From Blastocystis sp. Blastoise (Eukaryota; Sar; Bigyra; Opalinata; Blastocystidae): a stretch of DNA of 64,000 nucleotides. Below are positions 50,169 to 52,925 of this stretch, piece after piece; positions within the stretch are counted from its first letter, which is position 1; each line of letters starts with the position of its first letter. Below the pieces are notes generated by a model that was not told the DNA's origin, made no database searches, and saw only the letters and a list, made by a program, of their open reading frames with translations. The position numbers and the translations under genes are program-made. The DNA lies in assembly GCA_039096225.1 (NCBI GenBank), contig JBBPEB010000007.1, positions 248,001 to 312,000 on the forward strand, read 5' to 3'.

Positions 50169-51667
50169 TTATAAAAGTATTTTCTTTCCTCTTTCTTCAT
50201 TATCTTCTAAAATTTCTTCTTGTTTTTCTTCTATTGAAGGAACTGGCTCCTCTTTCTCATAAGCTTTATTTAAGATTTCTTCTAATTGATTAATAGAAAT
50301 AAGACCATCACCATCTTTATCCATCTTTGTTATAATACTTTTAGCCTATATATACAAATGGAATAATAATTATTATTATAAATAAAATAATAATAAATTC
50401 TAATAATTAAAAAAACACTAATTAAATAATTAATGAAAAAAATACTCATTAAAAAATAAATAAAAAAAAATACTTATTAAATAATAAATAAAAAAAAACA
50501 CTACATAAATAATTAAAAAAAAACATTAAATAATAAAATAAAAAACATATAATATGCTTCTTCTTCACTTCTTGTTTCTTTTAATCCTTTTAATAAAGCT
50601 ACTCCTAATTCATATTTATGTATATTACCATCATTATCATAATCTAAAATCTTTTTACTATCCCCAATTTGATGATCTAAATGATTCAAATCAACTTCTA
50701 TATTCTTTAACATCTTATTTAAATAATTAATAGCTTTATCTACTATTTCAGGCTTTTCGACTTCTTCTTCTTTAGTTTCTTGAGCAGTTTCTTTTATTTC
50801 TTTCTTTAATTCTTCTAATGTTTCTCTTTCGTTAACTACATAACTCTTAGAAGCCATTGCTTTTAATGTTTCTAATTCTTTTATACTTAAAGTAGCTTTT
50901 TCACCATTCTCAGTATGTGTTTCAATAGCTATAGATTCAGGATTTATTGTTTCTGAAGAAGTACTAGTCACAGAATCAGACGGAATAGCAGACTATATAT
51001 ATATATATTAAAATAATCAATTAATTATTAAAAAAATAATATTGTATTGTTTAGTAAATATATATTATATAAATATATACTTCTTCTGATTGATCATTAT
51101 TATCAATAATCGTTTGAATAACTTGTTCTTCTTTAATTTTCTTTTCTTCTTCTTTAATAACTTGATATTTAATTGCTTTAGCTAGTTTATCATCACTTGG
51201 AGCAGCTTCAATAATAGCCTATATATATATAATGCATTATTTAATAATTTTTTATTTTAAATAATTTATAATATAAATAAAACAATATAAAACTATAGAT
51301 ATATATACTTCTTTAACAGTAGAATCAGATAAAGACGAAATAGATGAAGAAAGATTTTCAATCATATTATTCTGACGAGAAGTAATAGACATAGCATTAG
51401 ATAATAAGAGAAGAGTAAATAATTAAAGATATTCTATAGTATTATTATATTATTATATATTATTATATATTATATATTATTTATTATATATAAATAAGGA
51501 TATGTAATCGGAACTTTTTCATTTACAGAAAGATTAAGCCATTCTTTCATTTGATTATAATAACCAGCCTATATAAGTTTATATATATATATATATAATA
51601 ATAATTATTATTATTATTACTATTATTATTATATTTATTACTATTATTATTATTATATATATATATA

Positions 51668-51716
<49 letters not shown>

Positions 51717-52881
51717 CTTTATTAAGTTTAGTAGACATCATACCACGTTCTTGACACGCAGTACGAAGTTCACTCACTGTTAAATCATCTAATCCCTATA
51801 TTATATATATATAATATATATATAATAATAATAATAAAAATAATTATTATTATAAATAGAATAAACATAATAATAATAAGCATTATATATATATTAATAC
51901 TTCATAGAATATTTCAAGATCATCAGTGATAAGATATTTAATTTTACTTCTTAATTGTACACGTAAATATTCTTCAGGTCCATAAGTAGCTACACCCATA
52001 AAACGACATAATGTTACTAACTATAATAAATATATATATATAATAAATAATAGATATAATAAAACTAACATAAACAAACAAAATATATATATATTATATA
52101 AAAAATTAAATAAATTAAAATAATGAAAATACTTGTGTTCTAGGCATATTATCAATAGTAATATCATTACTAAATAATTTGGATAATTCTACAATTTCAG
52201 TGGTTGATTTTAATTGTCCATCACGTGCTTCTTGTATAGCTGTTAATAAACTCTATTTATATTTATAAAAATAAAATTAAAAAAAAATAATAATAATTAT
52301 ATAAATAGAAATATATATACTTCAGCACTATCTCTATCTTTTCCATCTTCCAATTTAGTTTTTGCCATTTGTTCAATCGCATCTTGGAACACAGTTGCTA
52401 AAGATAATCGTGTTTCGAGGGATTTCTGCATTTTTGTTTCTTTACTTGTTTCTGATTCGAATGTTGATGGCAACATATTAGGGAAAAACTATAATTAAAT
52501 GAATAATATATATATATATTAAAAACAATAAAAAAATATAATATAATATATATATTAAAAATATTTTTTAAATTTTTAAAAAGTATATATATATATTAAA
52601 AACAATATATAAATATATATATATACTGTTAAAAAGAAAGGAAGTGTGAATTCCATAAAAGGAACAATAATAAAAACAGAAAAAGGGATCATTCGTAACG
52701 TATCCCCAACAGCACGTGTTAATTGTTTCTTTTCTCTTCTAGAAAGCATGCCTCCAAGAGCCATTTTATACCCCAATTTAGTGCCGGTAGCCATCTCTTT
52801 ACCTAATAATTTAGTACTAATCCATATATGATGTAATCCATTCTTTGTAGCCTTCCATCCCTTTGAAATCATAGGGCCTGC

Positions 52882-52925
<44 letters not shown>

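Follow-up and report, generated by a model that had tools for sequence, protein, structure and literature searches.

A gene for the mitochondrial ion exchanger LETM1 lies on the minus strand of the stretch of DNA analysed here (the window, 64,000 nucleotides, with a GC content of 17-26% in 4-kb steps), which comes from a member of Blastocystis, a genus of gut protists. The genome of this organism, Blastocystis sp. Blastoise (Stramenopiles, Opalinata, Blastocystidae in the NCBI taxonomy), comprises 33.3 Mb in 34 contigs. We joined ten exons of the gene at positions 50169-52882, giving 553 codons and a stop. The joined product is 100% identical over 553 amino acids to a deposited Blastoise protein of 693 amino acids, WA158_007072 (P0001), whose start lies further upstream than that of our ten-exon assembly. 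Residues 1-422 of P0001 matched the Pfam family LETM1_RBD (5.5e-73). The nine introns between the ten exons are 68-212 nt long and very A+T-rich. Seven have the form GTAT...TAG, one is AT-AC and one is GC-AG. The original prediction, that nearly all other introns read GTATAT...ATATAG, is therefore roughly right within LETM1, with the GC-AG and AT-AC introns as exceptions. The GC-AG intron (50346-50557, minus strand) was read from the sequence as GCATAT...TATATAG, and P0001 makes the corresponding join, EEA-KSIITKMD.

The AT-AC intron occupies positions 51503-51415 of the minus strand, is 89 nt long and interrupts a codon in phase 2. The upstream exon (51504-51568) starts with GCTGGTTATTAT and ends with GTTCCGATTAC, encoding VPI followed by AC, while the downstream exon (51309-51414) starts with TCTTCTCTTATTATC, encoding T and then LLLLSNAM. 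On the minus strand the context reads ...GTTCCGATTAC|ATATCCTTATTTATAT...GAATATCTTTAATTATTTAC|TCTTCTCTTATTATC..., and joining the exons gives NEKVPI-T-LLLLSNAMSI. The 5' splice site ATATCCTT (51496-51503) is an exact match to RTATCCTT, and a branch-point-like sequence, ATCTTTAAT (51422-51430), lies 7 nt before the intron end. This branch-to-acceptor spacing is short compared with that of most animals. We found that the intron combines the features of the U12-type AT-AC class: an RTATCCTT donor, a branch site near UUCCUURAY close to the 3' end, and an AC end with a conserved joined product. A minus-strand intron with this donor, an AC acceptor and a branch-like motif had been predicted here, and its coordinates proved exact to the base. 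The boundary is ambiguous because TTAC is shared between the two sides; among the possible placements, only AT-AC gives known terminal dinucleotides. The branch-like sequence is predicted to form six contiguous pairs with the branch-binding stretch of U12 (-3.8 kcal/mol), compared with -7.4 kcal/mol for the consensus UUCCUUAAU.

We enumerated the possible splices of this exon pair, placing the donor 20-110 nt from the start of the upstream exon, allowing GT-AG, GC-AG, AT-AC, AT-AG and GT-AC ends, and requiring a kept frame free of stops. The enumeration returned 16 splices (10 AT-AC, 4 AT-AG and 2 GT-AG), and 51503-51415 is the sole one that yields the conserved VPITLLLLSNAM ungapped. If the insert is retained, it introduces in-frame stops. 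P0001 carries the same junction. We aligned P0001 with nine homologues chosen among the best 120 of 1162 matches (plants, fungi, two protist transcriptome entries and two others). The junction falls without a gap, as had been predicted for this splice, and residues P407, L410, L411 and S414, which span both sides of it, are invariant. The two GT-AG pairs, from GTTCCG or GTAAAT to CGTCAG, are open and in frame. A splice using one of them would skip the segment and leave LETM1 without 18 or 22 residues, VPITLLLLSNAM included, which bears out the original view that the GT-AG alternatives remove conserved sequence. Such a splice would delete all four invariant residues and is not used by P0001; we consider it very improbable, even though the deposited model of a paralogue uses the equivalent of one of the pairs.

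This paralogue is located on another contig (C2) and encodes a second deposited protein, WA158_000122 (P0002), which is 78% identical to the joined LETM1. An AT-AC intron of 79 nt (C2:34148-34070, minus strand), reading ATATCCATT...ATTCTTAATAGAATTCAC, was found at the same codon as the LETM1 intron, with a branch-like ATTCTTAAT 9 nt before its AC end. With this intron removed, the paralogue encodes VPITLLLLSNAMSITSRQ, identical to the protein of the window gene at that place. Over these 18 codons the two genes differ at 12 nucleotides, and all 12 differences are synonymous, with no amino-acid change. P0002 instead reads NEK-NTMID, dropping the 18 conserved residues. The 18 discarded codons thus appear to be under constraint, which argues that the P0002 model is probably wrong at this site, and these same codons are the ones that a GT-AG skip would remove. 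P0002 would then be an example of a public gene model failing at minor introns, with conserved residues lost to a GT-AG choice. The shared position also suggests that the AT-AC intron may be older than the duplication of LETM1. An artefact of assembly or annotation, in which the insert is missing from the real gene or is never removed, seems barely conceivable: the paralogous intron sits at the same codon on a different contig with a diverged sequence, and retention would bring in the stops noted above.

The donor motif occurs at chance level in the window (9 occurrences of RTATCCTT against 10.4 expected from shuffles) and so is no proof of a minor intron when taken alone. At the other eight sites, inspected by eye over 170 nt each, we saw no convincing minor intron. 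What exceeds chance at 51503-51415 is the combination of features, not the donor.

We searched the genome contigs with Rfam models of the minor-spliceosome RNAs, scoring only the best candidates. One U11 gene was found on contig C4 (62.9 bits, above the Rfam gathering score) and one U6atac gene on contig C21 (63.8 bits, with the cut-off at 33). The single U12 gene, on contig C24, scored 46.8 bits, below the cut-off of 53, with an E value of 6e-7. The U6atac gene lies at C21:544821-544937 on the minus strand (positions 1501-1617 of locus L002; RF00619) and carries the box AGCCGA. A promoter-like element, CTTCTAATCAARATG, was found 57-64 nt before the model starts of U11, U12 and U6atac (start to start), and beyond these three sites it has no exact match in the genome. 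Copies with one mismatch are found immediately 5' of U2 and U4, two of the 27 loci scanned among the 43 such places listed.

No U4atac was found by the Rfam model in the genome at E 0.001. At a loose threshold, a candidate appeared on contig C8 (29.7 bits, E 0.045 and 0.014, cut-off 53), in a search that also matched 11 of 14 control genomes, none above the cut-off. The candidate has CTTCTAATCA, a variant of the promoter-like element, 60 nt upstream. We co-folded the first 75 nt of the candidate with the first 75 nt of U6atac. In the predicted fold, UUCGUCCUUAUCG of the candidate forms a 13-bp helix with CGAUAAGGACGAG of U6atac, followed by a short extension, while AUGCUGAC and GUUAGCAU form a helix of 8 bp; a predicted U4atac stem sits between the two helices, in what we take to be the canonical U4/U6 layout. 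The shared upstream element and the pairing with U6atac both support the candidate. The same strand carries a tRNA gene some 440 nt upstream of the candidate (positions 1611-1682 of locus L078, minus strand).

Among the U11/U12-specific proteins, the search covered 25K and 48K (the others being 20K, 31K, 35K, 59K and 65K). U11/U12-25K is present, with PF18036 matching two exons at 24.2 and 20.3 bits (45.9 bits for the two together), and the sequence GKHISW...KYIWKVYCL, which is presumably typical of this protein. A CHHC zinc finger of the 48K type was identified on contig C13 (PF05253, E 1.3e-5). The best PF05253 match, on contig C31, was rejected as U11-48K; it is TRM13. The original prediction had held that the organism keeps a minor spliceosome, and had named snRNA genes, U11/U12-specific proteins and further donors as the places to look. 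Its first two suggestions turned up genes for U11, U12 and U6atac, the U4atac candidate, 25K and the 48K-type zinc finger. U11 and U6atac above their gathering scores, with U12 below its own but at E 6e-7, suggest that a minor spliceosome is indeed retained.

The third suggestion led to additional AT-AC introns. The pattern TATCCTTN{25,55}TCCTTRAY matched the genome 56 times, compared with 47 matches for a reversed-pattern control. From the 56 matches we fetched 30 loci, representing 29 distinct ones, low-complexity repeats and coding stretches included. In 20 of these 29, TATCCTT was preceded by A (binomial p 0.0015 at 0.4). Of these 20, 15 had an AC end 5-13 nt downstream of the branch motif, compared with 3 of the 9 others (Fisher p 0.04). 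Both enrichments are supportive but not strong. A second pattern, ATATCN{28,58}TCCTTAAYN{4,11}AC, gave 122 matches against 218 in the reversed control. We kept 63 distinct matches among 100 of the 122 that were listed, which is not an unbiased donor set, and dropped 37 rows: copies of two dispersed repeat families (with one representative of each kept), near-copies and overlaps. The two repeat families, starting with ATATCACGTGCTTTTC and ATATCCTCTCTTCTTC, are present on many contigs. CTT occupies +6 to +8 in 19 of the 63 kept matches, where about one would be expected, as estimated from base composition. In these 19 ATATCCTT...TCCTTAAY...AC candidates the branch-to-end spacing is 6-13 nt and equals 7 or 8 in 11, with LETM1 at 7; their lengths of 57-79 nt are bounded by the search pattern.

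Motif counting was rejected as proof, as the two-part patterns do not clearly exceed their reversed controls. The genome-wide support therefore rests on the joins rather than on the counts. An open join was found at 15 loci, and seven of the joined pieces were given to Pfam. Three gave a domain match that spans the ATATCCTT...AC junction, namely Sec7 (2.3e-14), DNA_pol_A (7.2e-24) and NAGLU (1.8e-21), and the other four matched no Pfam family above its cut-off.

The genome-wide results also bear on which machinery would remove the LETM1 intron. The major (U2-type) spliceosome removes some AT-AC introns. The class of an intron does not follow from its terminal dinucleotides alone (PMC3584512). 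The degenerate branch site of the LETM1 intron would fit such a route. However, the donor ATATCCTT matches the U12 consensus exactly, and its pairing with the U11 of this genome is predicted. Genes for minor snRNAs are present, and UCCUUAAY branch sites accompany the same donor in further candidate introns. We therefore regard removal by the major spliceosome as highly unlikely.

We conclude, with a probability of roughly 0.95, that Blastoise LETM1 has at 51503-51415 a true AT-AC intron of the U12 type, which would be removed by the minor spliceosome. This conclusion draws on features read directly from the DNA: the donor, branch-like site, acceptor, frame, conserved product, paralogue, snRNA genes and U4atac/U6atac complementarity. 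Against it stand a branch site weaker than the consensus, U12 and U4atac scores below their cut-offs, and the poor predicted pairing of U6atac with the donor. By analogy with studied systems, the U11 5' end AUAAAGGG would pair with CCUU of the donor, and the branch A of ATCTTTAAT would be flanked by pairs with AUGAGUAAGGAAA of U12. U4atac/U6atac.U5 would then join, U6atac would replace U11, and ligation of the exons would give VPIT-LLLLSNAM.

A pan-eukaryotic survey that we take to be the work of Larue and Roy appeared in 2023. For Blastocystis it lists 253 minor introns, 196 of them (77%) AT-AC, and puts the median length at 39 bp (PMC10639083); the LETM1 intron measures 89 nt. According to Gentekaki et al. 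2017, Blastocystis ST1 has 346 U12-type introns in 319 genes, typically AT-AC, together with four snRNAs of the minor spliceosome and seven U11/U12 proteins (PMC5608401). Blastoise resembles ST1 and ST7 of the same genus in having AT-AC U12-type introns together with the machinery, but more than half of the ST1 introns are 30 bp long (PMC5608401), whereas those of Blastoise LETM1 measure 68-212 nt. Our literature search found no paper naming both Blastocystis and Blastoise. In a search for such introns in the LETM1 genes of other organisms, none of the papers listed mentions LETM1, and we claim no absence. Since published work already credits Blastocystis with U12-type introns in the hundreds, most of them AT-AC, the LETM1 intron enlarges a known set by one new member. 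It is a well-supported addition, from a further Blastocystis, to the known AT-AC-rich minor introns. The intron is not new in kind; the surprise is the altered box of U6atac.

The Blastoise U6atac reads GTTGAGCCGAGAGAAGGTTAGCA, compared with UAUGAAAGGAGAGAAGGUUAGCA in the Rfam consensus, so that AAAGGA, through which U6atac base-pairs with the 5' splice site, is replaced by AGCCGA. In other respects it is like canonical U6atac (RF00619), with the GAGAGAAGGUUAGCA core, a T-run end and predicted pairing with U4atac. No second, canonical copy was found: AAAGGAGAGAAGGTTAGC with up to three mismatches had nine genome matches, namely the known gene and eight without the full GAGAGAAGGTTAGC. U6atac-like words in viral contigs occurred at six loci, none of which was an Rfam U6atac at the gathering score.

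AGCCGA pairs with +4, +5, +8 (a wobble) and, if it is T, +9, and so falls short of complementarity to the 5' splice site. In a fixed register, +6 and +7 are mismatched to AGCCGA in 19 of the 19 CCTT donors and in the donor of the paralogue; the fit of the 19 to the consensus box is by construction, since they were chosen for CTT. The predicted duplex of U6atac with ATATCCTT donors has an energy of -1.3 or -2.0 kcal/mol, compared with -5.4 or -6.4 kcal/mol for the consensus box. The predicted pairing of AUAAAGGG of U11 with these donors is kept, at -4.3 or -6.7 kcal/mol. Co-evolution of the donors was rejected, as GG at +6 and +7 was seen in none of the 63 distinct matches kept. A compensatory pairing of the U12 5' end CGGCCUCAA with UUGAG-CCG of U6atac (-10.1 kcal/mol) was dropped; 8.9% of shuffles reach this value.

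Either recognition of the 5' splice site by U6atac is cut to +4/+5, or another contact is used, or the sequence of the gene is not the one expressed. In the literature available on divergent U6atac we found nothing on such boxes and claim no absence; the accessible portion of PMC2846911 gives the U12 consensus only. One possibility, put forward tentatively from the gene sequences and rated by us as less than even, is that the second reading of the donor has been relaxed in Blastoise. U11 would read CCUU, and U6atac without AAGG would keep +4/+5, plus a wobble or A-U pair at +8/+9. The minor spliceosome might then have a donor consensus held by U11 alone, or its U6atac might use another contact, such as a downstream AAGG or a complement in the U12 5' end. 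A 1998 paper by Incorvaia and Padgett, cited in PMC3584512, reportedly found that U12-type introns are activated only if U6atac pairs with the 5' splice site. If the U6atac box holds up, it would be more important than the intron, as Blastoise would be a natural genome that keeps CCTT donors without U6atac pairing. With such a genome one could ask whether the donor consensus is upheld by the first reading or by the second.
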